From: Castor canadensis
Taxonomy: Eukaryota > Chordata > Mammalia > Rodentia > Castoridae
DNA: 64,000 nt
Assembly: GCF_047511655.1 (NCBI RefSeq)
Contig: NC_133386.1
Coordinates: 81,099,501-81,163,500 of the forward strand
Reading direction: 5' to 3'
The position numbers and the translations under genes were made by a program. The number at the start of each line of letters is the position of its first letter. Position 1 is the first letter of the stretch. Shown here one piece after another: positions 4,455 through 55,585 of the stretch. The notes beneath the pieces were generated by a model. The model saw nothing but the letters and a program-made list of their open reading frames with translations. It was not told the origin of the DNA and ran no database searches.

Positions 4455-4690
4455 GTGTGGGTGTATGTGTGACTTTCACTTCTCCCACCGAGATGTGCAG
4501 TCTGTCTTCTAACCCCTGAATCTGGGCTTGACCACGTGGCTTGCTTTAGTCAGTGGGACATAAGCCAACATAAAACAGTCTTAGAATGCACTTCCACAAC
4601 ATGCCTTACTTATCTTTATGCTGCAGACCTTCTGCCACCATGAGAACAAGTCAGGGTCAGTATCTGGAGAGAACTTGGTAGACATGGAAA
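4455..4690 (+). mobile_element. MaLR/MLT1-like solitary LTR fragment
   Basis: Words such as 'gaccacgtggcttgctttag' and 'cagtgggacataagccaaca', followed by 'ccaccatgagaacaag', resemble mid-LTR sequence of the MLT1 group (ERVL-MaLR). It is an old, incomplete LTR. The palindrome arm boundary at 4589 falls inside it, and the LTR runs through that boundary without interruption here. In the right arm only the 4589-4690 part is present (55484-55585), so the right end cut the element. Confidence 0.5.
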
Positions 4691-4794
4691 TGCACTACCT
4701 CCAAAAAACTTATTGTCTCACTATAAAAAAAAACATGGTCAGCAGCCAGCCATCAGTCGCCAGCTCCTTCAGGGTCCACTCAGCTGCAGAGGGC

Positions 4795-7062
4795 ATACCC
4801 TTGCCAAAGTACACAGACTCTAACACAATAGTAGTGGAAGACTTCAATATCCCATTCTCATCAATAGATGGATCATCCAGACCCCTCCCACCCAAAAAAT
4901 AAACAAAGACACCAATAAACTAATTGACATGATAGACCAAATGGATTTAACAAGCATCCACAGAGTATTTCATCCAGCAGCTGCACAATACACATTCTTT
5001 TCAGCAGCCCATGGAATTTTCTCCAAAATAGATCATATTTTAGGGCACAAAGCAAATCTTAGCAAATGTAAAAAAGTCGAAATAACCCCGTGTATTCTAT
5101 CAGACCATAAGGGATAAAACTAGAACTCAACAACAAAAGAAATTAGAAACTATTTAAACACATGGAAACCGAACAACACATTATTGAATTACTAGCAGGC
5201 TATTGAAGAAATAAAGGTCAAGGGGGTGTGGATCAAAAAGTTCCTATATCTAATGAAAATGAAAACACAACCTACCTACTGCAAAGGCAGTGCTGAGAGG
5301 AAAGTTTAAAGATTTGAGTACCTAATTTTTAAAAAAAGAACTCAAATAACATAATTAACCTAATGATGGACCTCAAGCTCTTAGAATAAGAAGAACAAGT
5401 ACTGAAATTGTTAGCCAGACCAATAAGAAGCAAGAGAAAGAAATAAAAGGGACTCAAATAGGGAAGGAAGGAGACAAACTATCCCTAGTTTGCTCCTAGT
5501 TAGTATGCTCCTAGTTAGTATGCTCCTATACTTAAAAGACCCTTAAAACTTCACCAAAAAAATTTAGATCACATAAATACTTTCAGCAAAGTAGCAGAAT
5601 AAAAAATCAATATACAAAAATCAGAAGCTTTTCTATACACCATGAACAAGCAGAGAAAGAAATTAGGAAAACAATTACATTCACAAAAGCCTAAGAAAAA
5701 AATCTCGGAATAAATTTAATGAAGGAAGTGAAAGAAGATTGCAATGAAACTAATACAGATTTGAAAGAAATCTAAGAAGTCCTCAGAAGAAATACTTCAG
5801 ATCTCATGGATCTGCAGAATCAATGTGGGAAAAATGGCTATATTAATGAAAGCAACCTACATGTTTGATGAAATTCCCATCAAAATTGCAATGATATTCT
5901 TCACAGAGATAGAAAAATCAATCCTAAGGATCAAATACAAGCACAAAAGACCTCAAATAGCAAAAGCGATTCTGAGCAAAAAGAGCAACACTGGAGGTAT
6001 CACAATACCTGACTTCAAACTACAATATAGAACCATAATAATAAAAACAGCATGGTGCCAGGCAAAACCATACATGATTACCAATGGAACAGAAGACCCA
6101 GATTTGAATCCATGCAGCTACAGCTGTTTGATTTTTGACAAAGGAGCTCACAACATATGTTTGAGAAAAGAGCCTCTTCTTCAACAAACGGTGCTGGAAA
6201 AACTGTATTTCCACATGTAGAAGACTGAAATTAGATTTCTGTCTCTTATCCTGTACTTATATCAACTAAAAGTTGATCAAAGATCTTAAAGTAAGACCTA
6301 AAACTTGGAAAGTATTACAGGAGAGTAGGGGATACATTAGGATACATAGGCATAGGCAATAACTTTCTGAACAAATCTCTAATACCTCAACTATTAAGAG
6401 AAAGGATTGACAAATGCAACTTCATCAAACCAGAAAGCTTCTGCACAGTAAAGAAAACAGTCACTGGACTGAAGGGACAGCCTACAGAATGGAAGAAAAT
6501 CTCTGCCAGCTCTACAAGGAATCTGACAAGGGATTAGCAGCCAGAATATGCAAGGGGTTGAAAAACTAAGTTCCCAAAGACTCAACAGCCCAATTAATAA
6601 ATGAGCAAATGAACTGAACAGACAATTCTCAAAAGAAGAAGTACAAATGGCCAATAAATTCACAAAAAATGCTCAACATCCTTGACCAGAAAGGAAGTGC
6701 AAATCAAAATGACACTGAGACTTCACCTCACTCTAGTCAGAATGGCTATGATCAATAACATAAACAAGAACGAATGCTGACAAGGATGTGGGGGGGCGGG
6801 GTGGGGGGAAGAAACTATTGTACACTGTTGGTGAGAATGTAAATTAGTGTAACCACCTAAGTATGGCAGTTCCTCAAAACACTAAAAATAGAATCATCAC
6901 ATGATCCAGAGATACCATTTCTGAGCATATAGCTGAAGAAATGTATGTCAGGATACAAGAGACACCTTCACACCCATGTCCATTGCAGTGCTATTCACAA
7001 TAGCCAAGCCATGGAAACAGCCTAAATGTCCTATGACTGATGAATGGATTAAGAAAATGTGT
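4795..7062 (+). mobile_element. L1 fragment with ORF2 endonuclease and C-terminal pieces, left arm
   Basis: Endonuclease-domain words appear at 4810-5115: NTIVVEDFN, RVFHPAAAQYTFFSAAHG, KIDHILGHKANLSKCK and ITPCILSDH. A jump near 5480-5540, with a short triplicated 'gctcctagttagtat' motif, leads straight to 'ttaaaagacccttaaaact' of the reverse transcriptase end, so most of the RT domain is deleted. From 5825 the C-terminal part reads MGKMAILMKATYM... and [20 protein letters not shown]. Many stops; not functional. The 3' part ends near 7062, where a second L1 begins. The right-arm copy is at 53112-55379. Confidence 0.9.
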
Positions 7063-7985
7063 ATCTAATCGAGAACACCACCAACAATAAATGTTGGTGA
7101 GGATGCGGGGGAAAAAGGAGCCCTCATACACTGCTGGTGGGAAAGTAAGCTAGTACAACCACTTTGGAAAACAATATGGAGGCTTCTTAAAAAACTAAAC
7201 ACAGGTCTGCCATATGATCCAGAGCAGTCCCACTCCTAGGGATTTACCCAAAGGAATGTGACACAGGTTACTCCAGAGGCACCTGCACACCCATGTTTAT
7301 TGCGGCACTATTCAGAATAGTCAAGTTATAGAAACAGCCAAGATGCCCCACTACTGATGAATGGTTGAAGAAAATGCGGCATTTATACACAATGGAATTT
7401 TATTCAACCACAAAGAGTAATAAAATTTTGTCATTCGCAAGTAAATGGATAGAACTGGAGAACATCATCTTAAGCGAAGTTAAGTCAGGCTCAGAAGGCC
7501 AAAAATTGCATGTTCTCCCTCATATGTGGATTATAGACCTAAAACAAATGCAGTAATATTATTAGACATGGGTCACACACTAAGGGGAGAATGTGAATGG
7601 GTGGCACAGGGAAAGGGAAGGAACCCTAAAACTTGTATGTGGTAGATGTGCTCCCTGTTGAGGAGCAAATAAAGTAATCTTAAATTAGCAGAGGCCATTA
7701 GGGGAAGGGGACAAGAAAGTAGTGAAGGGTCTGGTAGAGATGAACCAATGTGGGTTACGATACACATGTGCATGGAGGCAATGCAAGGAATCTCTCTATG
7801 TAGCTATCTTTATCTCAAACTACCAAAAACACTATGTCTTTTTCTTATCTCCCATGTTTTCTCTTCAACAAAATTGGATACAAGAGGGCAAACAGGTTCT
7901 GTACAGTGGGGGTTGGGGAAGAAGTCCCAAACAATGTATATACATGTACACATGTAAGCAAATGTAAAAATGATAAAATAAAAGA
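7063..7985 (+). mobile_element. L1 3' end with 3'UTR, left arm
   Basis: It restarts the same L1 segment already passed at about 6775-7060 ('ggtgaggatgcgggggaaaa', 'actgctggtgggaaagtaag', 'tttattgcggcactattcag'), continues to the ORF2 C-terminal KMRHLYTMEFYSTTKSNKILSF, and then into a G-rich 3'UTR ending near an A-rich 'aataaaagaaagg'. It is a separate 5'-truncated insertion. The right-arm copy is at 52189-53111. Confidence 0.85.
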
Positions 7986-8745
7986 AAGGAAAGTGTGTAT
8001 TTATACATGGAGTATTTTTCAGCTATAAAAAGGTATAAAATTATGTCATTTTTCAGGTAAATTAATGGAGGTAGAGATCATCATGTTAAGCAAAGTTAGC
8101 CACGTCCAGAAGGACAAAGGTCACACATTTTCTCTCAGATGTGGAAGCTAGACCTATGTATGTATATATTAATACATACATGATTGTGTGTGTGTGTGTG
8201 TGTGTGTAAAAACATGTTTGCAATAGTGGGACTGTTTGAGGAGACTAGGGAAAGGCGAGAGAGGAAAAGAGATGATTGAAAGTGAATAATACAAAAATAT
8301 ATTGCTTCTGTGTGTGAAGATGGCAAAATGAAAGCTGTTGAGTAAAGGGGGTGGAGGGAGAGGGAAAGAGTAATAGAGGGGCTTAATGTGATCGAAGTAC
8401 GTCATATTCATGTGTGAAATACCACAGTGAAACCCCTTTGAACAATGAATATGCAGTTAAAAATGAAGGCCAGTGATGTAAAACAGGTCCTGTGCGTAGT
8501 GGGTATTCTGGGAGTGGGGAGGGGTGGACAGAAAGGTGAAGGAGAGCAAACATGGTAGGTGTACCTTTCATTCTTCTGTGAAAATAGAACAAGTAAACTG
8601 TTGACATTGTTCTAAGAAGAGGGGATGCGATGAGGGAGAAGAATGGAGAGGTGAATGCAATCAAGGAACACTGTAAGCACATGTGAAGTGTCACCACGAA
8701 CCCCCGTACAACTAACGTATGGCGAAAAAATATTAAATCAGTAAA
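7986..8745 (+). mobile_element. L1 3' end with long G-rich 3'UTR, left arm
   Basis: Starts with 'gtatttatacatggagtatt' and 'gttaagcaaagttagccacg', the ORF2 3' end, followed by a 3'UTR with repeated purine-rich tracts (8220-8700). A (TG)n run lies inside it at 8183-8207. This is a third 5'-truncated L1 tail in the same orientation. The right-arm copy is at 51429-52188. Confidence 0.75.
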
Positions 8746-9027
8746 TAGTTGACAAAATGCTCAACCTCACCACTGAACGGGAACATTGAATAGTAAACGT
8801 GTTTTAACTAATAACATTAACTCTAAGAGATGCTGAAGATTAGTAACTGTTCTTACACCAATAGTGGGAATATCCACATAAAACTTTGAAGAAAAGCCTT
8901 TTTCTTTTTGTCAGGATTTTGTAGTCAAATATCCACACAACCTACAACTTAACAATCCTCCTTCTAAACATATACCTTACAGAAACTTACACATGAGCCA
9001 TGAGGCACAAGTTTTTAAAAACAAAAA
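8746..9027. other. Unassigned spacer, left arm
   Basis: No feature recognised. It could be older L1-derived sequence ('atccacacaacctacaactt'). Mirrored at 51147-51428. Confidence 0.4.
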
Positions 9028-9180
9028 TAAGCTGAATATTGTGGTGCATGCATGTAATCCCAACACTCAGGAGGCAGAAGCAAGCAGATTGTCGTAAGTT
9101 CGAGGCCCCAGGTATATGTAGTGCGTTCCAAGTCAGCCTGGGCTACATAGCAAGACTCTGTCTCAAAAAACCAATAATTA
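9028..9180 (+). mobile_element. B1 SINE, left arm
   Basis: 7SL-type promoter word 'gcatgcatgtaatcccaaca', middle 'caggaggcagaagcaagcag', end 'gcctgggctacatagcaaga' and 'ctctgtctcaaaaaa', then an A-rich tail. The right-arm copy is at 50994-51146. Confidence 0.9.
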
Positions 9181-9893
9181 ATAAAAATAAAAACTGCAAG
9201 CTACAAATATCCACTGACAGGAGAATAAATTTTTGTAAGTTCATTGAATGAACAATTATACTATGATAGCATATGGTGTCATAGAACACTAGACTATAAA
9301 ATATGCCTGATAAGATATTTTTGAATTAAACTGAGTGAAGACTGAATGATAAAAGGCAGTCCCAGAAGAGTAAACAGTTTTATGACAGCGATTTTACAAA
9401 GCTCTGAAACTTCAAAATGCAAGCATACATATCTTCTGGTTAACATTCTTCTTGTAGAACACATCTTGGTTTTTACTATTCAGACTTCACAGGCTGTATA
9501 TATTTTAGGCGATGTTTCTATAGGGAAATTTTAAATAACTAAAATTCAATTTAAAAATTAGCATAAGTATGTATGGGGAAAACTCACATTTCATTCTGAT
9601 ACAATTGCAGGAATGCCAGGTTCAGTGGCACAGTTTGTCAAGCAAGACATTGCTGGTGCTGAGAGACAGTGTGATTAGGTTGTGAACTCATGTTCATTAT
9701 TTAGCAATCAGGAAGTGATTTTAAATATTGTTATTCTAACTTGACTGTCCCATTTTACTGTTTGGGAGACATGCAATACATTGTAATTTTTTCATTTAAT
9801 GTAATACAAAATAGTTCCCTCACAATCTTCTTATTTTCTTTTTGCACAGAACATCTGATTATTTAGGAATACCTTGAATAGGAGATTCTATGG
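9181..9893. other. Unassigned AT-rich sequence, left arm
   Basis: No gene or repeat that I recognise. The 62-codon frame at 9346-9534 has no domain and no supporting context. Mirrored at 50281-50993. Confidence 0.5.
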
Positions 9894-9978
9894 GTTGGAG
9901 GTGTGGCTCAAATGGTAGAGCCTAGCAAGCATGAAGCCCTGAGTTCAAACCCCAATACCACCATAAATAAATAAATAA
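9894..9978 (+). mobile_element. ID-type tRNA-derived SINE, left arm
   Basis: A box 'tggctcaaatggtagagc', anticodon-arm region 'ctagcaagcatgaagccc', B box 'gagttcaaaccccaatacc' and an (ATAA)n tail are all readable. tRNA-Ala-like ID lineage. The right-arm copy is at 50196-50280. Confidence 0.92.
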
Positions 9979-10164
9979 GGAGATGCCAGTATATTAGTAT
10001 ATTGTTTAAGAATGTGTACATATGTGGTAAAACTATCTTTAAAAAAACAAGGGAAAAGGTAATTTATACCAGCACTCCTGAGGATAAACAAAGTGGATAT
10101 GCAATAGAAAAATGAATCATGAGAGGAAAAGAGAGCCATCAGTTTGTGCCAAGAACCTCAGAGA

Positions 10165-10715
10165 TGGCCCATGATGATCTCTGCCTCCTACTAGTCACAT
10201 CGTGTGCTATTCCTTCCTCTTGTGTGTGGGTTAGCCTAGTGACTCACTTTTAACAACAAAACATGGCCAAAAGTGAAGGGATGTCACTTCCAAGATTAGG
10301 TTACAAATACACTAGATTCCATTTTGGGCACCAATTCTTTATGGCTTGCTCAGAGTGAAGTCAGCTAGCACACTGTGAGTTACTGTATGGAGAAGGTCAT
10401 CAGGCAAGAAACGTAAGGAGGACGTTTTCCAACAGCCAGAGAGGAGCTGAGGTCCTCAGTATAGCCCACAGGGAACTGCATCCTCCTGACAACCTCACGA
10501 ATGGACAGATCTTGTTGCTCCATGGGAGCCTTCAGGGAGACTGCATCCTGGTAACAGTCTGATGGAACACAAGAGGGTCCTTGACCAAGAGGCACCGTTT
10601 ACATCATACCAACATTCCTAACCTGCAGAAACTGTGAGACAATAAACGTTTGTGGTTTTAAAGCACAAAGTTTTAGGAGGTAAATCTGTTATGCAAGAAA
10701 AAGACGACTAAAAAG
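10165..10715 (+). mobile_element. MLT1A-like LTR (ERVL-MaLR), left arm
   Basis: A near full-length solitary MaLR LTR of old mammalian age. Characteristic words in order are 'gttagcctagtgactcactt', 'ctcagagtgaagtcagctag', 'cagaaactgtgagacaataa' and 'taaagcacaaagttttagg' near the 3' end. No internal region is attached. The right-arm copy is at 49459-50009. Confidence 0.8.
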
Positions 10716-10937
10716 CAATTGGTAAGATGATGGGATCAAAATACTGATGGAGGTGAAAACCCAGCGAAGCAAGCACAGCTGAGTATTTGCTAATTCAGAA
10801 GAAACATCTGTGAAACTGAGCTATAGGTTTGGCAATCTCATGGAGTATGATAAACAAGACTCAAAGTCCAGGAACTTCCCAACAACAGTCTTACATCCCC
10901 AACATTCACCATGAGGTGGAGCCCATGGTTTGCCAAG

Positions 10938-12561
10938 ATTCAATGCCCTTTCATGATAAAAGCACTGAAGAGCCAGGCACCAGTGGCTTATACCTGTAAT
11001 CCTAGCTACTCTGGAGGCAGAGATCAGGAGGATTGTGGTTCGAAGCCAGCCTGGGAAAATAGTTTGCAAGACCCTATCTTGAAAAAAACACATCACAAAA
11101 ATAGGGCTGATGGAATGGCTCAAGGTGAAGGTCCTGAGTTCAAACCCTAGTACCACAAAAAAAAAACTCTGAAGAAACTAGGAATAGAAGGAAAGTACCT
11201 CAAGATAATAAAGGTTATATATGACAAACCTACATCATACTAAATGGGGAAAAACTGAAGCCATTTCTTCTAAAGTTAGATTAAAACAAGCATGTCCACT
11301 CTCCCTTCTCTTATTCAGTACAGTACTGGAATTCCAACCAGAGCAATTACAAGCAAAAGAAATAAACAGGATTCAAGTAGGGGAGGAAGAAGTCAATTTA
11401 TACCTATTTGCAGATGACATGATTCTATACTTAAAAGACCCTAAAGATTCCACCTAAAAAGTTTCTAAATCTAAGTACTTTCAGCACTGTAGCAGGATAT
11501 AACATTAGCCTACAAAAATCAGTAGATTTTCTACATACCAAAAATGAACAGCTGAGAAAGAAATCAGGAAAACAATTCCATTCATAATATTCTCAAGAAA
11601 AAAAATTAGCATGAACTTAATCACACTGGTGAAAGACCTCTATGATAAACTTGAAGACACCAGAAGATGAAAAGCCCTGCCATGTTCATGGATTGACAGA
11701 AATATAGTGAAAATTGCTATACCACCAAAAGCAATCTAGATTCAACGCAATGCCCAGCAAGATCCCAATATCCTTCACAGAAAAATAAAAATCAATCCTA
11801 AAGTTCATATGAAAGCATAGAAAAGTAATTCTAAGAGAAAAGAGCAATGCTGTAGGTATCATAATATCAGATTTCAAATTATACTGCAGAGATATAGTAA
11901 CCAAAACAGCATGGTACCGACACAAAAATAGACACAGCTTCCAATGGAACAGAATAGAAGACCCAGAAATAAAAATACCACACAGCTACAACCATCTGAG
12001 CTTTGACAAAGGAGCCAAAATCATACACTGGAGAAAAGACAGCCTCTTCAACAAATGATACTAGAAAATTGGCTATCTATATACAGAAGACTGACCATTA
12101 CCCATTTCTTATCTTGTACAAAAAGCAACCCCAAGTAGATCAGAGATCTTTATATAAGATGGAAAACTGAAAACAATACAGGTTAAAAAAAAGGGAAAAT
12201 TCTAGAAGACATAGGTAATTATTTTCTGAATAGGACTTATTTGCCATGAATTAAGGGGAAAAACTTATTTTAAAAAAAGACTGCATCAAATTAAAGTCTC
12301 TGCCCAAAAAAGAGGAAACAATTATCAGAATGAAGAGACAACCCACAGAACAGGAGAAAATCTTCATTAGCTATTCAATATAGAAAGAGCTAAAAAAAAA
12401 AAAACTACAGCAGAACAAATCATTCAGTCAATAAATCGGCAAGTTGGACAGTTCTCTGAACTGAAATTCAAATGGCGAATAAATACATGAAAAAACGTTT
12501 AACATCCTTAGACATACAGGAAATGCACATGAAAACTACACTAAGATTTCCTCCGTCTAAC
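10938..12561 (+). mobile_element. L1 ORF2 reverse-transcriptase and C-terminal fragment, left arm
   Basis: Opens at the RT word MIKALK, is interrupted by a SINE, and resumes as KKLGIEGKYLKIIKVIYDKPT. It then carries the polymerase motif [16 protein letters not shown] (11407-11454; FADD is the usual L1 form) and C-terminal ITFLxFKL-like sequence. Several stops break it. It ends near 12561, where it abuts L2 sequence. The right-arm copy is at 47613-49236. Confidence 0.9.
10968..11165 (+). mobile_element. B1-dID SINE inserted in L1, left arm
   Basis: A B1 half ('cttatacctgtaatcctagc', 'ggttcgaagccagcctggga') joined to a short ID half ending 'ctgagttcaaaccctagtac' and a poly-A tail. It interrupts L1 ORF2. 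The flanks 'gcactgaag' and 'aactctgaag' may be the target-site duplication. The right-arm copy is at 49009-49206. Confidence 0.88.
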
Positions 12562-12563
12562 AC

Positions 12564-13395
12564 TGTGTTCTCAGAGGGCCTGGCTGCCCGGAGTGAAGAG
12601 GTCAGAGGGGTTCCTGGAGCCCAGGTCACTCAGGGCTTTGTAGATCATTATAAGTTGTTGATTTCAGTCAGAGTAAAGATGAGAGCCACTGTAGGGATTT
12701 GAATCAAGGAAAAATGGATCTAAGTGTGACTTGTTTTAAAATAGTCATTCTGGCTGTTAGGTTGAGGGTTAACTTTAAGGAGAAAAAATGTAGAATTCAG
12801 CAAGACCAGTTAGGAGGCTGTTACAGAAATACAAGTGACAGATGATACTCAGAACAGGGTAGCAGCGGTGAGATGGCAACAAGTGGTCAGATTGCAAATA
12901 TATTTAGAAAATAGGGCAAACATTTTCTGATGGAATGAATGAGGGTCCTAAGAAAAAAGTGAGGAGTTAAAGATGGATCCAAGATTTTATACCTGAGTAA
13001 TTGAAGGATGGAATTGACATCAGTTGAGATGGGGAAGAATTTGAAGGGAGCAGAGTTGGGTTTTTTGTTGTTGTTTTTTTGGTGTCTTTGATTTTTCGAG
13101 ACAGGCTTTTGCTGTGTAGCCCAGGCTGGCCCTCTTGAATGGCTGGGATTACAGGCATGTGTCACCATGCCTAGACTAAGAAGCAGGTTTCGACAAAGGC
13201 CAATTGTATTTTTGTACACATTGAGTTTGAGATGTAGGACATCCCAAGTGAAGATGACAAACAGCCAATTGAATGTATAAGTTCAAGAGATAAGTCTAGG
13301 TTGTAGATATAAATAGGGGAATTATCCACACATATGAGCTTTTAAATCATGTTAAGACAAGAGATGAAGAGATTGCATATTGATCTAGATCGCTC
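12564..13395 (-). mobile_element. L2 (LINE-2) 3' fragment, left arm
   Basis: On the minus strand the segment shows the L2 ORF2 end: 'ctcaccgctgctaccctgtt', 'agcctcctaactggtcttgc', 'agccagaatgactattttaa', 'atgatctacaaagccctgag' and 'gacctgggctccaggaaccc'. Upstream is 'ttcacttgggatgtcctaca'. Very old and decayed, with a B1 inserted. The right-arm copy is at 46779-47610. Confidence 0.85.
13055..13175 (-). mobile_element. B1 SINE inside L2, left arm
   Basis: The reverse complement reads 'catgcctgtaatcccagcca' then 'agggccagcctgggctacac' and 'cctgtctcgaaaaatc', with a poly-A tail (T-rich at 13063-13080). The right-arm copy is at 46999-47119. Confidence 0.9.
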
Positions 13396-14769
13396 TCTCA
13401 TTAGGCAGAAAGTTTCTAGAAAACATGGACTGAGGAGTTTACTGTTCAGATGTAAGCACTTGACCCAACTTTTGGTAGATGCTCAGTATTAAGATTTCTT
13501 ACCCACAATCTCAGCCTACTAAATACAGATAAAAAGCTAAAACTTCAAGACCTGATTAAATACCCAACCTAAGCCCACAGCAACACATTCTAAGTTTCAT
13601 GTACTCTTTCTCCTGTTGTGATTATAGATTCACTGAACCAGCAGGCAGAATAGGAGGGGATGAGGCCAGAATACCAAGTATTCCTATAGCCTTTCTCCGT
13701 GGAGGTGGAGAATGCCCAATACAGCAATAGTGGGGGCTAGGCTGGGCATAAGGACTATACCTAAAGATGAAAGATTGCCTCTTTCTTCTGTACATTCTTT
13801 GGGATGTCTCAAGCAAGGAAACTTCAGAACCCCAAATCTAGCTTCCTAATTGTGGACTCAAGCAGAAAAGTTGTCACCTCATAAATCTAAAGAATTTCTT
13901 TCCTGTTTCCCACCTAAATTTATTTTTCATGTAAGAGTTCACAGATTAAGTGAGACTGAGAGAAGACCTAGGAACTCATGTAACCCTTTGTTTTAATTGC
14001 ACTAATTAAGGATATCAAGTTTTGAAGTCACTCAGCAAGTGGCCCAGGCCCACAAGCTTACCAGAGAATGCTTCAAGCTGAGTCTTTCTCCTTCCTCCTG
14101 GCTAGACTGAATAGCTACAAGACAAAAGGTGCTCTTCTTAAACCCCAAGTAGGTTCAGAAGAAAAAAGTTTAACTGCAGAAAATCCTACTAAGGAGCATT
14201 ACTTTGTTTAGCCTAAGCAAGTAGAGGGGAACATAAAATTGCCAATGAAAATTCTTCTTACTGAATGCCAACATACACTAACTACTGAAATTCAGTGCAC
14301 ATAGATTATTTACTATAAAAGACTATCAAAGTAGGAGAGTACTGATGACACTCAAACTTGATGCCTCCGTCACAAAGCTGGGACATAGCTGATTCAATTC
14401 AGTTAAGATGGAACTTATGCTTGGAAATGTATGAATCTAGGTAAATTTTTCATTGCTTAACTTCAAAGGAAACAGTTGTTTTTCAATACTGAGATTGAAA
14501 GATTTTATTTATTCTAGGTTCACAAGTACTATTGTGAGGTGATAAGGAACACCTTTTCCAACTGAGAATCTTTATAACTCTTACTATGACAAGCATCAAA
14601 AAATTGATGGTAATTTCAAGATGATCTGAAAAAGAAAAAAAAAATAACAGTAGTTCTAAGGGGTAGATATGAGATAAATTTCTGACTTTGAGGTTGGATT
14701 TTTACTATGCTCTCTCCACCAGCAGGTTTACAGAACTTCAATTTAAATTTACTAACTATCTACTATGTT
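13396..14769. other. Unassigned unique sequence, left arm
   Basis: No gene is visible. A weak MIR-like stretch may lie at about 13960-14060 ('cactcagcaagtggcccagg'), but it is too diverged to call. Mirrored at 45405-46778. Confidence 0.45.
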
Positions 14770-15730
14770 AACTTAAAATTCCAAACCCCAAAAACCACAA
14801 AATTGAAGAAATATTTGCAAAAGACATACTTGAGAAAGGACTGCTATTCAAAAATATACAGAACTCTTAAACTTCTACAATAAAATGAACCAGATTAAAA
14901 AAATAGGCAGAAGACCACTGAACTGATACCTGACCAAGGGAGATAAGCACATGACAAATTAGCATATGAAAATGAAAATATGTCACGTCATTAAGGAAAT
15001 CAATACTATATACTTAATAGAACAACCAAAATTCAAAGCATAGATCACATCAAAGGCTAGTGAGGATATAGAATGAGAGGAATTCTCATTCATTGCTAGT
15101 GGGAATGTTAGACGGAACAGCCACTTTGGAAGAGTTTGATTGTTTCTTACAAAACTAAACACTCTTACCATAGAATCTAGCAATCATGCTCCTTAGTATC
15201 TACCAAAAGTAGTTGAAAATATGTCCACACAAAACCTATGGAGATCTTTATAGTAGCTTTATTCACAACTGCCCAAACTTGGGAGCAACCAAGATGTCTT
15301 TTAGTAGGTGACTGGATAAACAAAGTGTGATTCATCCCTACAATGGACTATTAATCGGCGTTAAAAAGAAATGAGCTATCAAGTCATAAAGACGTGGAGG
15401 AAGCTTACATGCATATTACTAGTGAAAGAAGTCACTATATGATTCCACCTATAACATTCATGGAAAAGAAAAATGACTAGAAGTTGCCAAGGGTTGAGGG
15501 GCAGGGAAGGAGGAGGAAGGGCAAGGGAATTATCAGGGAACTGAGACTACTTTGTAGGATATATGATGGTAGATACAAGTCATTCAACATATGAAAAGCC
15601 ATAGGACATACAGCACCAAGAATGCTAAAAGTGGTGGAGGCTGTCTGTGAATGAAGGTAAAGGATATACAGGAATTCTGTATTTTCTGCTTAATTTTGCT
15701 GTGAACATAAAACTGCTCTTAAAGAAAAAG
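14770..15730 (+). mobile_element. Old L1 (L1M-type) ORF2 3' end and 3'UTR, left arm
   Basis: Order of old-L1 words: 'tacagaactcttaaacttct', 'ccaaacttgggagcaaccaa', 'gtgactggataaacaaagtg', 'tgagctatcaagtcataaag' and 'agaagttgccaagggttgag', ending 'gtgaacataaaactgctctt'. This is the standard ORF2 C-terminus to 3'UTR of ancient L1s. The right-arm copy is at 44444-45404. Confidence 0.85.
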
Positions 15731-15797
15731 TCTATTAAAAATCTTTTTGAAAATTAACAGAGTAGTTTGTGATAACACAGATTTGACTATCCTTGCT

Positions 15798-16105
15798 GGA
15801 AATCTTGTGGACTAGCAGTGTTTTGGATTTTTTCTGATTTTGGAATATTTGCATGTACACAATGAAATTCTTGGGGATGAGACCCAAGTCCAAATACAAA
15901 ATCCATATATTTCACATACACCTTATACGTGTAGCCTAAAGGTCATTAAAAAATTTTTGTGTGTGTGCCTGTGTTTTGACTGCAATCTACCACAAGGGAT
16001 CAGTTGTAAACTTTTCCGCTTGTGGGTCACAGTGGTGCTCGAAGTTTAAAATTTTGAAGCATTTTGGATTTTCAGATTAGAGATGCTCAATTTGTACCTT
16101 TAAGT
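15798..16105 (+). mobile_element. Tigger-type (Tc/mariner) DNA transposon relic, left arm
   Basis: Begins with 'tgctggaaatcttgtggact', followed by 'ttttggaatatttgcatgta', 'cttggggatgagacccaagt' and 'ttcacatacaccttatacgt'. It closes with 'cattttggattttcagatta', near-inverse of its start. This matches a common non-autonomous Tigger element with internal deletion. The right-arm copy is at 44069-44376. Confidence 0.75.
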
Positions 16106-16137
16106 AAGTTATGAGACTGAGTCAAGAGACTCTAAGG

Positions 16138-16215
16138 AGGATTGGGGTTTAGTGCAGACCATTTGCCTAGCATGCACAAGGCCCTGGGTTTGAGCCCCAG
16201 CACTTAAAAAAGAGG
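16138..16215 (+). mobile_element. ID-type SINE, left arm
   Basis: 'ggttttagtgcagacc'-like A-box region (diverged), 'cctagcatgcacaaggccct', B box 'gggtttgagccccagcactt' and an A-rich tail. It directly precedes the FLOT2 pseudogene. The right-arm copy is at 43959-44036. Confidence 0.85.
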
Positions 16216-16249
16216 GGGGAGCAACAGATAAAGAAAACCAGGGGTGGCA

Positions 16250-17208
16250 GGATGGGCTGGGCGTCCCCCACTGCTACTGTCCAGGTCCGCGTGGCGAGGG
16301 CCTTCCCTCACACCAGCGCCATGGAAAATTACCACATGGTGGGGCCCAACGAGGCGCTGGCGGTTTCAGGGGGCTGCTGTGGTTCCATCTATAGACAGTA
16401 CATGTTTGGCGGCTGGGCCTGAGTCTGGTGGCGTTTCCCCGAGGCTCAGAGGAGTCCCCTAGAGATTGCTGGCATTGCAGCTCAGCTGTGAGGACACAGA
16501 GATGCGGAGGCATAGCCTTAACCCTGGAGGGGCATCTGCGCTCCATCCTTGGGGCCCTGACTCTGGAGCAGGTTTCTCAGGACCGAGACCAGTTTGCCAA
16601 GCTGGTGTGGGAGGTGCCAGCCCCTGACATTGGCCACATGGGCATCGAGACCCTCAGCTTTACCATCAGGGGCGTGTATGACAAAATGGACTATCTAAGC
16701 TCCCTGGGCAAGACACAGACTGCCGTGGTCCAAAGAGATGGTGACACTAGCGAGGCTGAGGCTGAACAGGAAGCAGGCATCTCTGTGAAGCTGAGTGCAA
16801 GAAGGAAATGCTGGACGTGAAATGCATGCAGCACAAAGATTGTTGACTCCAAGGGAGCCTTTAAACCGCAAAAGTCAGCGTTCAGTGAGGAGGTCAGCGT
16901 CAAGTCTGCTGGGGCCCAGTTGGCCTATGAACTGCAAGGAGGCCCTGAGCAGCCGAAGACAGGGGAGGAAGAGATTGAGATTGAGGGTCATGCAGCGTAA
17001 GAAGCAGACAGCTGTAGAGGCTCAGGAAGTCCGTGCACTGACAAGGAACTCATTGTCACAGGGCACTGGCCTGCTGAGGCCGAGGCCACTGCATCCAGCA
17101 AACCGCTGAGGGAGAAAAGGTGAAGCAAGTCCTCTTGGCACAAGCAGAGGCTGTGCAGAAGATCTGCAAAATTGGGGGGCGGGCAGAGGCAGCAGTAATT
17201 GAGGCGAC
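16250..17208 (+). pseudogene. FLOT2: Processed pseudogene of flotillin-2, left arm
   Basis: FLOT2 encodes a lipid-raft scaffold of the plasma membrane with an SPFH/PHB domain and an alanine-glutamate-rich coiled coil. An ATG at 16321 begins MENYHMVGPNEALAVSGG, close to the human start MGNCHTVGPNEALVVSGG. Further matches in order are EGHLRSIL, DRDQFAKLV, GIETLSFTI, LSSLGKTQTAVVQRD and, in shifted frames, the coiled-coil part with RKKQTAVEAQE and KVKQVLLAQAEA. No introns are present, so it is a retrocopy. It has a stop after FGGWA, an internal loss of about 40 codons before EGHLRS, several frameshifts, and it stops at the VIEA position, so the C-terminal third is absent. About 70 bp upstream look like retained 5'UTR. 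Its exact inverse copy is in the right arm. It has no coding role. Confidence 0.93.
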
Positions 17209-17397
17209 TTAAATTCATTGGGAATTTTATTTTTTACAAGTTCATTTACTAAGCTGAAGCTCATCTTAGTTAGATGAAGTTCATTTACTAAGCTTCAAGA
17301 CTTCCCTTAATCATTAAGAATTTTACTACCATGCTAACACTACATTTGCTTGAAGAAAATAACTTTACAATTTTGAAATTTTGGTGTCACTTAAAGC
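17209..17397. other. Spacer between FLOT2 and TTK pseudogene pieces, left arm
   Basis: Contains a short direct duplication: 'ttcatttactaagct' occurs near 17241 and again near 17281. Nothing else is seen. Confidence 0.5.
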
Positions 17398-17797
17398 TTT
17401 ATTTACATAGTTCTTGGGAATATATTTCAGTTGTCCACCCTCTTCCAAGTGGACAACTTGGTGGACTTGGAAATACTATCAAATAGATTAATTTACAGGA
17501 AAAAGCACAAAACAGATAAAAACTTATTTAATTTAATATATACAGTAACATTAGTGGTTATTTTTACAGTTTTGTTTTGCAGAAAATCTACTGATATTTT
17601 ACCGATAACATTTCAGAATAAAGTTGTTTTCAAGAGTAGATTTCCAGAGAATGAAGAATATAAAGGTTCAGTATATTTTATAGTGTCATTTGACAGCTTC
17701 TAAGTAGCTACATATCATTTTTTTCCAACTTTTTTTCAAATGTCTTGGATGCTGAAGAATCATGACTTTCACCACTACTGTACCGTTCATATAAAGT
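17398..17797 (-). pseudogene. TTK: Isolated TTK terminal exon and 3'UTR, left arm
   Basis: An exact inverse duplicate of the terminal exon in the right arm. The 30-codon coding part lies at 17708-17797 on the minus strand and begins TLYERYSSGES, with a splice acceptor just outside it. The 3'UTR follows down to a polyadenylation signal AATAAA (minus strand, 17398-17403). No upstream TTK exon lies on the minus strand beyond the CA tract, so this copy is an orphan exon. If a transcript covered both this copy and the right-arm one, the two would be complementary. Confidence 0.9.
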
Positions 17798-18182
17798 CTG
17801 TAATTTAAAAAGTTTGTTTTATAACTTTTTAGTTCATTGTATTATCTATCAGATTGAGTAAAGGTAACTTGGTATATTCCAAATATAATAAATTTCTCTT
17901 TTCTTATAATCAGAAAATTATCACACACTACTAGCTAAGAATTCTGAACGTTTAACTTGATATTATGAAATGCAGCTCAATACTCCCATAAGAGAAATAC
18001 AATATATTATTAATAAACAGGTATCAAACCTTCAACATATCCTCAAGTCCCTCACTTTTCCTCAAATATCAAGCTATACTTAGCTAAATTCCCATAGGTA
18101 AAGCATACTAGTATGAAACTTAGTATATATTTTCAGATGATATGTAAACTAATGATCAGAGGACATGGAAAATTATAATTAC
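17798..18182. other. Last-intron remnant of the TTK copy, left arm
   Basis: Reverse complement of 41992-42376, the 3' end of the last TTK intron including a polypyrimidine region before the acceptor. No other feature. Confidence 0.75.
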
Positions 18183-18259
18183 GGGCTGGGGGCAAGGCTC
18201 AAGAGCTAAACCCAGCAAGCCTAGCAAGCGCATGGCCTTAAGTTCAGCTCCAGTACAAC
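18183..18259 (+). mobile_element. ID-type SINE that abuts the CA tract, left arm
   Basis: A box 'ggcaaggctcaagagctaaa', then 'cctagcaagcgcatggcctt' and B box 'aagttcagctccagtacaac'. The giant CA tract starts exactly where its 3' tail should be, after a GC-alternating 'cgcgcacatgcgc', so the tract may have grown from the SINE tail. The right-arm copy is at 41915-41991. Confidence 0.88.
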
Positions 18260-18261
18260 GC

Positions 18262-18267
18262 GCACAT

Positions 18268-18309
<42 letters not shown>

Positions 18310-21300
18310 CCCACACATGCATACACAAGATACACACACCACACAAACACCAGACACACACATAAACACAATGCACACACACAATACACATACACATACA
18401 TACACACACCACATACACACACACATACACAAACACACACACACATGCATACACCACACACACACGTACATACATACACCACACATGCATACACAAACAC
18501 ATACACACACCACACACATACAGACAATGCACACACCACACACAAGACACACATACATACACCACACACACCACACACACAGCACACATACACACATACC
18601 ACACACAATCACACACCACACATACACATACATACACACACACCACACACACAACCTAAACACATACCACAGTACACACACACCACACACATACACAAAC
18701 ACACATGGCACATACGCACACCACAGACACACCCACACATATGCACACACAAATACATACCTACACACATACACACACGACACAGAAGCACATACACACA
18801 CTACACCCACCACACACATGTATGCATACATACACACCCACCACACACACAATCTACACACAGCACATACATACAATACACACACCACCTACATACAGAC
18901 ACACCCACCAAACACATACACACACACACCACACACATACACACACCACATACACATACACACAATACACACACAACACACATACACCACACACACATAA
19001 ACATAAACGCACAGCACACAGACATACACACAATACACACCACACCTACACACAATACACAAACACCACCTACAGACATATACTCACTACACACCACACA
19101 CACATACAGACACCACACACATTCATACACACAATACACACCCCCACACATACATACACACAATACACCCCCCACATACATACTCACATACCACACACAC
19201 ATAGAACCACACCACACACATGCACACAACACACACATACTCACATACACCACACACCACACACACCACATGCATACACCACACACACCACACACATACC
19301 CACACCCCCACAGAAACATACACCCCACACCCTTTCACACACTACACACTAATACAACACACATACAACACACACATATACACACCACACACACATACAA
19401 ATAATACACACACACCACCTACTCACATACACCCAGCACACATACACACACATGTACACACACAATACACAGACACCTACACATATACACAAACACCACA
19501 CACGCACATACATACACACAATATACCTGCCACACACAAAACACACACACATACACACAATACACACACGCTGCACATACACACAATACACACACACAAA
19601 TACCTACACACAATACCCCCCACACACCACACACACAAACACACACAAAACACCCACCACACACATACATACACACAATACAAACACCACACACACAGTA
19701 CACACCACACAAATAAACACAATACACACAAACACAGAAATACACACACCACACACATACACACAATGCACACACCACTCCCACTACACACTACACACAC
19801 ATACCCACCGTCCCACACATACACTCCACACACTTACACACTACACACTCACACAACACACACGCAAACAGTACGCACACACCATCTACACGCATACACC
19901 ACACACATACACACAGATATACACACAATATACCCACCACACACACACAAACACAAACCACACACTCATACAAACACTACACCCACATACATACACACAA
20001 TACACACAGAGCGCACATACACACCATATATACAACACACACAGACATACACAGACATACACACACAATGCACCCGCCACACACACTACACAAACACATA
20101 CATACACACAATACACACACACCACACACACTACACACACACCACCTACACACATACCCACACACCCACACCCCACACACACATCCATAATACACACACA
20201 TACAAACAATACACACACCACCTAAACACATACACACACATACACACACATGTACACACACAATACACATGCACCTACACACAAAATACACACAGCACAC
20301 TCACATACATACAACATACCCACCACACACATACACAAACCACACACGCTTACAAACAGTACACCCACACACATACACACAGTACACCCACCACACACAC
20401 ATACACACAAAAACCACAGACACATACAAAACACACACACACACATTCGCACAATACACTCACGCTGCACATACACACAATACACAAAAGCACACACACA
20501 TACCTACACACAATACCCCCACACACAACACACACATACGCAGAAAATACACACACCACACGCACACATACACACACCACACACACTACACACACAACAC
20601 ACAAACATGCATGCATGTACATACACACACCACACACATACACACAATACACGCACACACAAATACACACACCATACACAGACCACACACTACACACACC
20701 ACACACACACATACCCACACACACATACACACCACACACTTACATACACTACACACAACACACACATACACACACATGTACACACACAATACAGATGCAC
20801 CTACGCCCAAAATACACACACACCACACACTCACATACATACACACAATATACCCACCACACACACATACACAAACACACATAAACCACACACACACAAA
20901 CAATATGCCCACATACATGCACACAATACACACATGCTGCACATACACACAGTACACACAAACACACACAACCCTACACACAATATCACCCACACAGATA
21001 CACACACACCACACACATACACACACAATACACCCACCACATACACACCACACACATACATACACACATCACACACACAATACACAGCACACATAAACAC
21101 AATACACACAGATGCACACAAATACACACACCACACACATAATGCACGCACCACTCACACACTACCCACACTACACACACACATACACACTCCCCCCAAA
21201 TACACGCCCCCACACACTACCCACTCACACAACACACATACAACACACACATACTGACACCACACACACATACACACATGTACACACACAATACACACAC

Positions 21301-27060: not shown

Positions 27061-27255
27061 GTGTTCTCCGTTTCCCTATCTGCTTTTTCTCTGTAGCATA
27101 CCTTTTAACATGCTCTTATATTTATTTGATTTGCTTTTGTCCCTCTACACACGAATGTGAGCTCCATGAAGATAGCAGTGTTTGATTTGCTCAGTGATCC
27201 TAGCCCTGGTATCCAGAATACAACAGAATAGTAGCTGAATGAATAAACTGCCTCC
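27061..27255 (+). mobile_element. L2 3' end relic
   Basis: Typical L2 tail order: 'tgtgagctccatgaagatag', then 'agtgatcctagccctggtat', then 'agtagctgaatgaataaact'. It starts where the CA tract stops, so the junction at 27060/27061 may cut it. Confidence 0.7.
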
Positions 27256-27695: not shown

Positions 27696-27704
27696 ATATA
27701 AATA

Positions 27705-31807: not shown

Positions 31808-31819
31808 GTACTGCTTCTT

Positions 31820-32575: not shown

Positions 32576-32589
32576 TTTTTTGCTTTCTT

Positions 32590-32815: not shown

Positions 32816-33589
32816 ATTCCTGTTCTGTGCATATAGCACAGGTCAGAGTGGGTTTTCAAAAAAGGTACATTCAAAAGATTACTGTCAGGCCTCAGTTGGA
32901 TAAATTTAGTATAGCACTTTATCTTTTAAATCATTCTCAATACCATTCTTAACACAGCTTTTGAATTCATTCCTTCTAGTCAATTTCTTATGAAACTTTA
33001 GAGATACTATAGTATTTGCAGCACTTCTGTAAAGTTGTACGTAGCCATGAGCACATGCCTCAGGCTTTCAGACTCCCATTACCTATTTGTGTCTGCACTA
33101 TTATATTTGTCTTTCACTGTCTCAAACACCTAGTCATTTCTAGAATATTGTGAAAGTTCATTGATCAACTGGTTTAGCTGCCAAGAGATTACTAATGATA
33201 TATTTCAGTTACAACAGTATTATAAAATTATGGAAGTGTGAATTAACATTCTTAGCTCTCTGGCTCAATCTACGTTACTAAGAGCCTGGACACACGTCTG
33301 AATGAAATATTACATTTACATTCAAATAAGGTAAAATTTTTCTTAAACTTTCTCAAGTGCTTCTGGCTGAATCAGTGGCTTTAGGAATTAAGATTGGGCA
33401 CAGTGTGTTTTTTAATTGCTTTGTATTTTATATCTACACATTTAAAATTCATACCAATGTATTGTTCAAAACTTTTAAAAATAAAATTGAGATAATCAGT
33501 CACCTTTATCACTAAAAGGCAAAAATGTCATTTTCATAAATTAGATGTTGGCTAAGCCTTCAATCTTTTTATAATACATAGACTTTAAT
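32816..33589. other. Last-intron sequence, no feature
   Basis: AT-rich. No exon, RNA gene or transposon recognised. Confidence 0.5.
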
Positions 33590-33932
33590 ATATAGTTGGC
33601 CTTTTGTATCCATGAGTTCCACATCCATAGATTAAATAAAGTGCAATTCAAAAATATGCCCTCCCCCTCAAATTGCATGAGTAAAGAACATATATAAACT
33701 TTTTTCTTATTACTCCGTAAAAAATACAGCATAACAATGATTTATATCATGTTCACATTGTATTAGTTGTTATAAGTGATCTAGAGATTTTAAAGTATAC
33801 AGGAGGATATACATACATACATGCAAATAGTGTGCACTCTACATAAGAGACTAGAACATGTATGTTTTGGAATCTGTGGGGTGAAGATTTTTCAACCAGT
33901 CCCCCAGAGATACCAAGAACAACTGTACCTAA
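33590..33932 (+). mobile_element. MER2-like Tigger DNA transposon
   Basis: Nearly full length (about 340 bp). Opens 'agttggccttttgtatccat', contains 'aatacagcataacaatgatt', 'gtgatctagagattttaaag', 'gtatacaggaggatatacat' and closes 'agagataccaagaacaactg', the inverse of its start. It lies 35 bp before the TG tract. Confidence 0.85.
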
Positions 33933-33967
33933 TTATGTTTGTTTACATAATTATTTACTACTGGTTT

Positions 33968-39900: not shown

Positions 39901-41864
39901 TGTGTGTGTCTTGTGTGTGTACATGTGTGTGTATGTGTGTGTATGTGTTTAGGTGGTGTGTGTATTGTTTGTATGTGTGTGTATTATGGATGTGTGTGTG
40001 GGGTGTGGGTGTGTGGGTATGTGTGTAGGTGGTGTGTGTGTAGTGTGTGTGGTGTGTGTGTATTGTGTGTATGTATGTGTTTGTGTAGTGTGTGTGGCGG
40101 GTGCATTGTGTGTGTATGTCTGTGTATGTCTGTGTGTGTTGTATATATGGTGTGTATGTGCGCTCTGTGTGTATTGTGTGTATGTATGTGGGTGTAGTGT
40201 TTGTATGAGTGTGTGGTTTGTGTTTGTGTGTGTGTGGTGGGTATATTGTGTGTATATCTGTGTGTATGTGTGTGGTGTATGCGTGTAGATGGTGTGTGCG
40301 TACTGTTTGCGTGTGTGTTGTGTGAGTGTGTAGTGTGTAAGTGTGTGGAGTGTATGTGTGGGACGGTGGGTATGTGTGTGTAGTGTGTAGTGGGAGTGGT
40401 GTGTGCATTGTGTGTATGTGTGTGGTGTGTGTATTTCTGTGTTTGTGTGTATTGTGTTTATTTGTGTGGTGTGTACTGTGTGTGTGGTGTTTGTATTGTG
40501 TGTATGTATGTGTGTGGTGGGTGTTTTGTGTGTGTTTGTGTGTGTGGTGTGTGGGGGGTATTGTGTGTAGGTATTTGTGTGTGTGTATTGTGTGTATGTG
40601 CAGCGTGTGTGTATTGTGTGTATGTGTGTGTGTTTTGTGTGTGGCAGGTATATTGTGTGTATGTATGTGCGTGTGTGGTGTTTGTGTATATGTGTAGGTG
40701 TCTGTGTATTGTGTGTGTACATGTGTGTGTATGTGTGCTGGGTGTATGTGAGTAGGTGGTGTGTGTGTATTATTTGTATGTGTGTGTGGTGTGTATATGT
40801 GTGTGTTGTATGTGTGTTGTATTAGTGTGTAGTGTGTGAAAGGGTGTGGGGTGTATGTTTCTGTGGGGGTGTGGGTATGTGTGTGGTGTGTGTGGTGTAT
40901 GCATGTGGTGTGTGTGGTGTGTGGTGTATGTGAGTATGTGTGTGTTGTGTGCATGTGTGTGGTGTGGTTCTATGTGTGTGTGGTATGTGAGTATGTATGT
41001 GGGGGGTGTATTGTGTGTATGTATGTGTGGGGGTGTGTATTGTGTGTATGAATGTGTGTGGTGTCTGTATGTGTGTGTGGTGTGTAGTGAGTATATGTCT
41101 GTAGGTGGTGTTTGTGTATTGTGTGTAGGTGTGGTGTGTATTGTGTGTATGTCTGTGTGCTGTGCGTTTATGTTTATGTGTGTGTGGTGTATGTGTGTTG
41201 TGTGTGTATTGTGTGTATGTGTATGTGGTGTGTGTATGTGTGTGGTGTGTGTGTGTATGTGTTTGGTGGGTGTGTCTGTATGTAGGTGGTGTGTGTATTG
41301 TATGTATGTGCTGTGTGTAGATTGTGTGTGTGGTGGGTGTGTATGTATGCATACATGTGTGTGGTGGGTGTAGTGTGTGTATGTGCTTCTGTGTCGTGTG
41401 TGTATGTGTGTAGGTATGTATTTGTGTGTGCATATGTGTGGGTGTGTCTGTGGTGTGCGTATGTGCCATGTGTGTTTGTGTATGTGTGTGGTGTGTGTGT
41501 ACTGTGGTATGTGTTTAGGTTGTGTGTGTGGTGTGTGTGTATGTATGTGTATGTGTGGTGTGTGATTGTGTGTGGTATGTGTGTATGTGTGCTGTGTGTG
41601 TGGTGTGTGTGGTGTATGTATGTGTGTCTTGTGTGTGGTGTGTGCATTGTCTGTATGTGTGTGGTGTGTGTATGTGTTTGTGTATGCATGTGTGGTGTAT
41701 GTATGTACGTGTGTGTGTGGTGTATGCATGTGTGTGTGTGTTTGTGTATGTGTGTGTGTATGTGGTGTGTGTATGTATGTGTATGTGTATTGTGTGTGTG
41801 CATTGTGTTTATGTGTGTGTCTGGTGTTTGTGTGGTGTGTGTATCTTGTGTATGCATGTGTGGG

Positions 41865-41906
<42 letters not shown>

Positions 41907-41912
41907 ATGTGC
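33968..41912 (+). repeat. Giant interrupted (TG)n tract in the last TTK intron (7.9 kb)
   Basis: Strand-complement counterpart of the left CA tract. The inner part (33968-38158) is related to 21945-27060 in inverse orientation but diverged and rearranged. The outer part (38159-41912) is nearly identical to 18262-21944. It includes a 69 bp unit near 39856-39948 absent from the left arm. A TG-rich intron tract this size would make the last intron hard to transcribe and replicate. Confidence 0.95.
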
Positions 41913-42965: not shown

Positions 42966-43924
42966 GTCGCCTCAATTACTGCTGCCTCTGCCCGCCCCCC
43001 AATTTTGCAGATCTTCTGCACAGCCTCTGCTTGTGCCAAGAGGACTTGCTTCACCTTTTCTCCCTCAGCGGTTTGCTGGATGCAGTGGCCTCGGCCTCAG
43101 CAGGCCAGTGCCCTGTGACAATGAGTTCCTTGTCAGTGCACGGACTTCCTGAGCCTCTACAGCTGTCTGCTTCTTACGCTGCATGACCCTCAATCTCAAT
43201 CTCTTCCTCCCCTGTCTTCGGCTGCTCAGGGCCTCCTTGCAGTTCATAGGCCAACTGGGCCCCAGCAGACTTGACGCTGACCTCCTCACTGAACGCTGAC
43301 TTTTGCGGTTTAAAGGCTCCCTTGGAGTCAACAATCTTTGTGCTGCATGCATTTCACGTCCAGCATTTCCTTCTTGCACTCAGCTTCACAGAGATGCCTG
43401 CTTCCTGTTCAGCCTCAGCCTCGCTAGTGTCACCATCTCTTTGGACCACGGCAGTCTGTGTCTTGCCCAGGGAGCTTAGATAGTCCATTTTGTCATACAC
43501 GCCCCTGATGGTAAAGCTGAGGGTCTCGATGCCCATGTGGCCAATGTCAGGGGCTGGCACCTCCCACACCAGCTTGGCAAACTGGTCTCGGTCCTGAGAA
43601 ACCTGCTCCAGAGTCAGGGCCCCAAGGATGGAGCGCAGATGCCCCTCCAGGGTTAAGGCTATGCCTCCGCATCTCTGTGTCCTCACAGCTGAGCTGCAAT
43701 GCCAGCAATCTCTAGGGGACTCCTCTGAGCCTCGGGGAAACGCCACCAGACTCAGGCCCAGCCGCCAAACATGTACTGTCTATAGATGGAACCACAGCAG
43801 CCCCCTGAAACCGCCAGCGCCTCGTTGGGCCCCACCATGTGGTAATTTTCCATGGCGCTGGTGTGAGGGAAGGCCCTCGCCACGCGGACCTGGACAGTAG
43901 CAGTGGGGGACGCCCAGCCCATCC
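42966..43924 (-). pseudogene. FLOT2: Processed pseudogene of flotillin-2, right arm
   Basis: Inverse duplicate of 16250-17208 with the same stop, frameshifts and truncation, so the retrocopy was already dead before the arm was duplicated. It lies tail to tail with the TTK copy (190 bases from the polyadenylation signal). Confidence 0.93.
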
Positions 43925-54400: not shown

Positions 54401-55379
54401 AGATTTCTTTCAAATCTGTATTAGTTTCATTGCAATCTTCTTTCACTTCCTTCATTAAATTTATTCCGAGATTTTTTTCTTAGGCTTTTGTGAATGTAAT
54501 TGTTTTCCTAATTTCTTTCTCTGCTTGTTCATGGTGTATAGAAAAGCTTCTGATTTTTGTATATTGATTTTTTATTCTGCTACTTTGCTGAAAGTATTTA
54601 TGTGATCTAAATTTTTTTGGTGAAGTTTTAAGGGTCTTTTAAGTATAGGAGCATACTAACTAGGAGCATACTAACTAGGAGCAAACTAGGGATAGTTTGT
54701 CTCCTTCCTTCCCTATTTGAGTCCCTTTTATTTCTTTTTCTTGCTTCTTATTGGTCTGGCTAACAATTTCAGTACTTGTTCTTCTTATTCTAAGAGCTTG
54801 AGGTCCATCATTAGGTTAATTATGTTATTTGAGTTCTTTTTTTAAAAATTAGGTACTCAAATCTTTAAACTTTCCTCTCAGCACTGCCTTTGCAGTAGGT
54901 AGGTTGTGTTTTCATTTTCATTAGATATAGGAACTTTTTGATCCACACCCCCTTGACCTTTATTTCTTCAATAGCCTGCTAGTAATTCAATAATGTGTTG
55001 TTCGGTTTCCATGTGTTTAAATAGTTTCTAATTTCTTTTGTTGTTGAGTTCTAGTTTTATCCCTTATGGTCTGATAGAATACACGGGGTTATTTCGACTT
55101 TTTTACATTTGCTAAGATTTGCTTTGTGCCCTAAAATATGATCTATTTTGGAGAAAATTCCATGGGCTGCTGAAAAGAATGTGTATTGTGCAGCTGCTGG
55201 ATGAAATACTCTGTGGATGCTTGTTAAATCCATTTGGTCTATCATGTCAATTAGTTTATTGGTGTCTTTGTTTATTTTTTGGGTGGGAGGGGTCTGGATG
55301 ATCCATCTATTGATGAGAATGGGATATTGAAGTCTTCCACTACTATTGTGTTAGAGTCTGTGTACTTTGGCAAGGGTAT
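51429..55379 (-). mobile_element. Stack of three L1 3' fragments, right arm
   Basis: Inverse copy of 4795-8745. Boundaries between the three pieces fall at about 52188/52189 and 53111/53112. Confidence 0.88.
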
Positions 55380-55483
55380 GCCCTCTGCAGCTGAGTGGAC
55401 CCTGAAGGAGCTGGCGACTGATGGCTGGCTGCTGACCATGTTTTTTTTTATAGTGAGACAATAAGTTTTTTGGAGGTAGTGCA

Positions 55484-55585
55484 TTTCCATGTCTACCAAG
55501 TTCTCTCCAGATACTGACCCTGACTTGTTCTCATGGTGGCAGAAGGTCTGCAGCATAAAGATAAGTAAGGCATGTTGTGGAAGTG
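55484..55585 (-). mobile_element. MLT1-like LTR piece cut by the arm end, right arm
   Basis: Corresponds to 4589-4690 of the left flank LTR. The remainder of that LTR (4455-4588) is not present beyond 55585, where TG repeat starts at once. Confidence 0.55.

Follow-up and report, generated by a model that had tools for sequence, protein, structure and literature searches.

A spaced palindrome in Castor canadensis with inverted CA/TG tracts at its inner arm ends, tentatively attributed to template switching and gene conversion

A 64,000-nucleotide stretch of Castor canadensis DNA (NCBI RefSeq assembly GCF_047511655.1, contig NC_133386.1, positions 81,099,501 to 81,163,500 of the forward strand; hereafter the window, numbered from its first letter) carries two near-identical inverted arms, the inner parts of which sit in kilobase-long CA and TG tracts that flank a 6.9-kb spacer in opposite orientation. 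From left to right, the locus consists of a left flank, 13.7 kb of non-tract DNA, an 8.8-kb CA tract, the spacer, a 7.9-kb TG tract, the same 13.7 kb reversed, a 0.37-kb TG stub and a right flank. By size, identity and spacer it is a palindrome. We tentatively explain it as a real, spaced palindrome that arose as an inverted duplication by replicative template switching and whose arms were later homogenised by gene conversion, a reading to which we give somewhat less than an even chance.

When the window was compared with itself, an inverted match linked 4589-26161 to 55585-34002. Chaining of unique 24-mers delimited the near-identical part, namely a left arm at 4589-21946 (17,358 bp) and, as its reverse complement, a right arm at 55585-38157 (17,429 bp, minus strand), in agreement with a preliminary description of this DNA, whose inner limits (21944 and 38159) proved right to within 2 bp. 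A base-by-base alignment of the arms, which that description had called for, gave as the complete list of differences one substitution (G at 5436 versus A at 54738, in left-arm sense), one 69-bp repeat unit, flanked by copies of a short direct repeat, and a repeat unit of 2 bp. Across the three collinear blocks of the arms (15,666, 534 and 1,167 bp), no mismatch besides that at 5436 was seen. Apart from the 69-bp and 2-bp units, by which the right arm is the longer, the part of the CA tract within the left arm (18271-21946, plus strand) is identical in the right arm. The non-tract portion (4589-18270, plus strand, 13,682 bp) differs from the reverse complement of the right arm by one mismatch and no indel, and a tract-masked self-comparison aligned 4592-18248 with 55582-41926 without gaps, at one mismatch in 13,657 bp. 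Given 13,682 non-tract bases with a single mismatch, the match is not due to chance.

The edges were sharp. When 100-bp pieces were compared with the reverse complement of 33970-64000, the highest identity rose from 0.59 before position 4589 to 1.00 after it, and the three 100-bp pieces of 4289-4588 reached only 0.59-0.66 in the right half. The left flank (1-4588) has no second copy in the window: the masked self-comparison returned no match to it at E 1e-5, and at lower stringency only repeat-like matches of 65-74% identity appeared, all of 4200-4390. No third copy of the arm was found within the 64 kb. The spacer proper (27061-33969, 6,909 bp) is without an inverted copy and exhibited only short, diverged repeat matches. 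The identical arms lie 16.2 kb apart, of which 6.9 kb is non-tract DNA. For palindromes of ape sex chromosomes, the program palindrover sets a minimum arm length of 8 kb, a minimum identity of 98% and a maximum spacer of 500 kb (PMC11168930). The arms described here measure 17.4 kb and the spacer 16.2 kb; palindrover also requires less than 80% repetitive content, and our assignment rests on size, identity and spacer.

The inner parts of the arms have a composition of their own, which the preliminary description had not recorded. The CA tract (18271-27060, plus strand, 8,790 bp) consists to 63% of AC/CA dinucleotides with a longest pure run of 36 bp, and the TG tract (33970-41911, minus strand, 7,942 bp) is of the reverse-complementary type. 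At 63-64% AC/CA dinucleotides, neither is a pure microsatellite; larger units are present as well, and Tandem Repeats Finder returned one row with a period of 461. To our knowledge, degenerate CA/TG tracts of 8-9 kb with units of about 460 bp are unusually long for a mammalian dinucleotide-like array.

Beyond the inner edge, homology between the right and left tracts returned after a length difference of 1.15 kb. In 100-base steps, the 500 bases past 21946 showed identities of 0.88-0.97 to right-tract sequence at 37213-36692, displaced inward by 1.15 kb, whereas the background similarity between the inner tracts was 0.77-0.87 (40 random pieces), and 25 left pieces compared with the remaining left tract gave 0.744-0.861. 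The block just inside the left edge (21949-22529, plus strand) and its right counterpart (36692-37213, minus strand) are homologous in partly permuted order and show 16 substitutions in 503 aligned bases, corresponding to about 97% identity for substitutions only and 92-93% with gaps. The intervening right-tract stretch (37010-38156, minus strand, 1,147 bp) lacks an in-place counterpart on the left: its 200 bases inside 38157 found their best place at left 20825-21026 with 0.826 and their second best with 0.807, which is tract background. On the left, the block starts 3 bp beyond the identity edge at 21946. By our estimate, for an edge placed by chance in the tract of 8,790 bp, the probability of lying no more than 6 bp from the block start is 0.15%, and from either block end 0.30%, figures judged post hoc. 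Equally post hoc is the argument that a block beginning so close to the edge, beside the 1.15-kb length difference, favours arms that formerly extended further inward and were made alike as far as this barrier.

At the other end of the right arm, the TG stub (55586-55960, minus strand) turned out to be a third copy of tract sequence at 18876-19244, with three substitutions and three short indels (a 9-bp indel was read by eye). Aligned with the copied piece at 18876-19237 (plus strand), it scored 98.1% over 364 columns and 664 bits, compared with a maximum of 140 bits among 30 simulated tract pairs and 277 bits for the top-scoring repeat of the actual left tract. Since this identity points to a single place, the next-best places reaching only 0.77-0.81, we rejected the stub as a random TG leftover. 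The extra stub had been cited before in favour of a real structure, and as a 98% third copy of one tract piece it is a stronger argument than had been made.

The homology of the stub extends right up to the outer junction at 55585/55586. Inspection of the letters by eye showed that the tract (...TACTCAC, ending at 19244) meets the arm (CACTTCC..., from 4589) with three shared bases, CAC, at 4589-4591 (plus strand), common to the tract at 19242-19244 and seen as GTG at 55583-55585. Such few-base microhomology is expected of a replicative template switch resembling microhomology-mediated break-induced replication (MMBIR), although 3 bp alone are weak evidence. No hairpin was predicted in the 71 nucleotides folded at the junction (minimum free energy 0). 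Head-to-tail joining of 19244 and 4589 recalls a circle, and we considered a circle or tandem-duplication origin; the right copy continues unbroken to 21946, so that a circle of 4589-19244 is not the source, and this origin was ruled out. Taken together, the sharp edges, the opposite CA/TG tracts at the inner end, the microhomology at the outer edge and the tract copy in the stub make template switching the simplest account.

The divergence of the tract falls into two strata. Inside the arms we counted 0 substitutions in 3,676 bases, as against 19 in 863 aligned bases in the pieces outside them, which were selected for good alignment (16/503 in the block, 3/360 in the stub; Fisher P = 2e-14). 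We infer that the outside pieces stem from the same event as the arms, a point that bears on 19/863 versus 0/3,676 as a test of conversion. At an assumed rate of 2.2e-9 per site per year, which may not be that of the host, the outside pieces would be about 5 million years apart (3.0-7.8) and the arms about 17,000 years (0.4-93 thousand). Only the contrast between inside and outside is solid, as the substitution rate of the tract may run high. We did not date the structure by arm divergence, which gene conversion would reset. The preliminary description had offered a very recent duplication or gene conversion as alternatives; this was the right pair of choices, and the remnants outside the arms lean slightly to conversion.

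From these observations we infer template switching, a left original with a right copy, and conversion instead of a second recent event. In or close to the right TG tract, a replication fork or a break would have switched template, within the CA/TG repeat, onto the inverted left CA tract. Copying would then have moved away from the spacer, across the tract and the adjoining 13.7 kb, halting at 4589, where CAC would have allowed re-pairing with the tract at 19244 and continuation through the stub into the right flank. Gene conversion would since have kept the arms alike, stopping on the inner side at the 1.15-kb length difference and leaving the stub and the inner block untouched, with their older divergence. 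The direction is assumed rather than computed: we take the left arm to be the original on the premise that a putative MLT1-like long terminal repeat crosses 4588/4589 there. No second copy spanning 4588/4589 appeared in a low-stringency search inside the window or in a plasmid search with 4440-4760.

Several points weigh against this account. It is built on one assembled sequence of a single individual. The stub is less diverged than the inner block (3/360 versus 16/503, P = 0.03), which mildly suggests that the two may differ in age. Inside about 22,530 and 36,690 the similarity of the tracts is mostly at background, so that the first switch point is not located, and the order of part of the inner block differs between the two sides, resembling a tandem array of the approximately 460-bp unit read in a different phase. 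Right 38149-37720, furthermore, resembles left 20832-21276 (81.7%, 257 bits, above the simulated tract pairs, comparable to within-tract repeats and inside the spread of similarities seen among pieces of the tract) in a register nearly shared with the block, the coordinate sums being 58,981 and 58,958. Such a match would weakly fit an older TG tract already aligned with the CA tract and favours, less strongly than the block start favours the opposite, an older TG tract that later received the arm. Finally, the arms are not clearly richer in GC (0.384) than the flanks (0.391 and 0.356), exceeding only the spacer (0.341). In simulations, gene conversion raised GC by a median of just 0.68% in 29 million years (PMC8981503), and the GC contrast is uninformative on conversion.

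The close rival is a very recent inverted insertion without gene conversion, which we regard as a serious possibility, if one with clearly less than even odds. Here, an older TG tract ending outward in the stub, and related in inverted orientation to the CA tract, would already have been in place. A break in it would have been repaired with the left side as template, copied from 21946 to 4589 with a shift in register of about 1.1 kb, and the new end would have been joined to the stub through 3 bp of microhomology. On this view the single mismatch in 13,682 bp stands for the 17,000 years given above (0.4-93 thousand, at the assumed 2.2e-9), and the scheme fits the two-step break-induced replication in inverted repeats with a microhomology junction described at PLP1 and MECP2 (PMC4352052). 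It is also consistent with right 38149-37720 followed by 37009-36692 being nearly in one register with left 20832-22275, and with the unequal divergence of stub and block (P = 0.03). It offers no explanation, however, for the start of the well-conserved homology on the left 3 bp from the edge, or for the earlier origin of an inverted copy confined to the tract. An assembly error, in which one real arm or two alleles were placed twice in inverted orientation by an assembler confused by the CA/TG tracts, appears unlikely to us. Tract pieces are about 80% alike everywhere, and allelic variation could account for the two length differences and the single substitution. For most mammals, however, a single substitution in 13.7 kb would mean very low heterozygosity, and since one arm has a whole repeat unit that the other lacks, a single sequence was not simply printed twice. 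An overlap-based misjoin requires a long near-identical overlap, and neither junction has one; the sequences meeting at 55585/55586 share just three bases, so that joining by overlap is hardly possible and a chimeric read or a gap-filling error would be needed at the outer edge, and the window contains zero N, hence no gap letters. Least of all do we expect origin-dependent inverted-repeat amplification, or a fold-back or dicentric event as in terminal inverted duplications. The unduplicated spacer between inverted copies and the inverted homology at the spacer edge do recall the latter (PMC3907307), but 8 kb of right flank follow and no terminal loss is visible in the window. Amplification is opposed by the lack of a third arm copy in the window and by the presence of inverted repeats at only one junction; the initiating product described in PMC10766186 differs in this respect, although that paper allows for secondary rearrangement.

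A more far-reaching reading, which we consider speculative and rather improbable, would treat inverted pairs of kilobase-long, degenerate CA/TG tracts as a standing palindrome-making engine that repeatedly exchanges pieces and sometimes drags single-copy DNA along as a new arm. It would read the strata at about 99%, 97% (substitutions) and background as successive exchanges, and the locus as a palindrome without intact genes, able to arise and be maintained alike without selection, possibly off the sex chromosomes.

As for gene content, the only gene-like arm sequence recognised was a flotillin-2-like fragment (16428-16820, plus strand), taken as a pseudogene, with a Band_7 match in Pfam and named relatives annotated as flotillin or flotillin-2; the open reading frame (ORF) is present in the right arm as well (43354-43746, minus strand). 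No intact gene was recognised in the arms in a limited search, in which six of 73 ORFs of at least 120 amino acids were run against Pfam and spliced genes were not searched for. A link to sex chromosomes and ampliconic testis genes, drawn in the preliminary description, found no support within this search. Over 85% of its length, the flotillin-2-like fragment shares 99% identity with the JGI protein P0121 (110 amino acids, encoded on a contig of 1,839 bp and belonging to a five-member cluster), so that DNA of the same or a close species is seemingly present in a metagenome collection.

The right flank (55961-64000) contains remains of L1 ORF2 in two open frames on the minus strand: 59066-60010 (314 amino acids), which matched RVT_1, an L1-type reverse transcriptase, and 57826-58704 (292 amino acids), which overlaps L1-like repeats of the arms. 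The best 120 of 7,998 relatives of the former showed 67-88% identity, the top three JGI proteins reaching 88%, 80% and 79%, and the organism-named relatives among the matches listed came from placental mammals of several orders. Older related L1-like stretches with 67-83% identity occur in the arms. The same flank has a 95-bp direct repeat (60725-60819 and 61511-61605, three mismatches), and 1197-1667 (plus strand) in the left flank holds a 156-amino-acid open frame without a Pfam match. A tRNA scan and an Rfam scan of the window gave no matches. A scan for short motifs of short interspersed elements (SINEs) and telomeres gave one telomere-like match with three mismatches, at 29181, and no other.

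Among known systems, the palindromes of mammalian sex chromosomes, such as P8 of the human Y, are alike in their long, near-identical inverted arms, short spacer and possible homogenisation, and the junctions of rearrangements around P8 show 2-6 bp of microhomology or longer homology (PMC6790999). They differ in that, at the present locus, no testis gene or intact gene was recognised and the inner arm ends are degenerate CA/TG tracts. The duplication-triplication/inverted-duplication (DUP-TRP/INV-DUP) rearrangements at PLP1 and MECP2 likewise have one junction in inverted repeats and the other with microhomology of a few bases; at PLP1, inverted repeats mediate the first switch and 14 of 16 second junctions carry 1-4 bp of microhomology (PMC4352052). 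Here, in contrast, the inverted repeats are simple-sequence tracts instead of low-copy repeats, and where DUP-TRP/INV-DUP has flanking duplications and a triplication, the 64-kb window holds two copies only. Fold-back inverted duplications with a disomic spacer share an unduplicated spacer of some kilobases and inverted homology at its edge, but the described cases include ones that adjoin terminal deletions or translocations or lie in rings (PMC3907307), whereas further flank follows here within the window. A literature search that covered few of the subscription journals found no described equal for kilobase-long inverted CA tracts, or for dinucleotide repeats combined with inverted duplication and break-induced replication. 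The structure is thus informative, yet not unprecedented. The origin of palindromes has been little studied compared with their maintenance (PMC6790999), and this locus presents outer and inner edges in a single 64-kb window, with diverged remnants beside near-identical arms as two clocks in one place. If confirmed in related species, it would indicate that simple-sequence tracts suffice to seed a palindrome and that conversion can act on arms without recognised genes.

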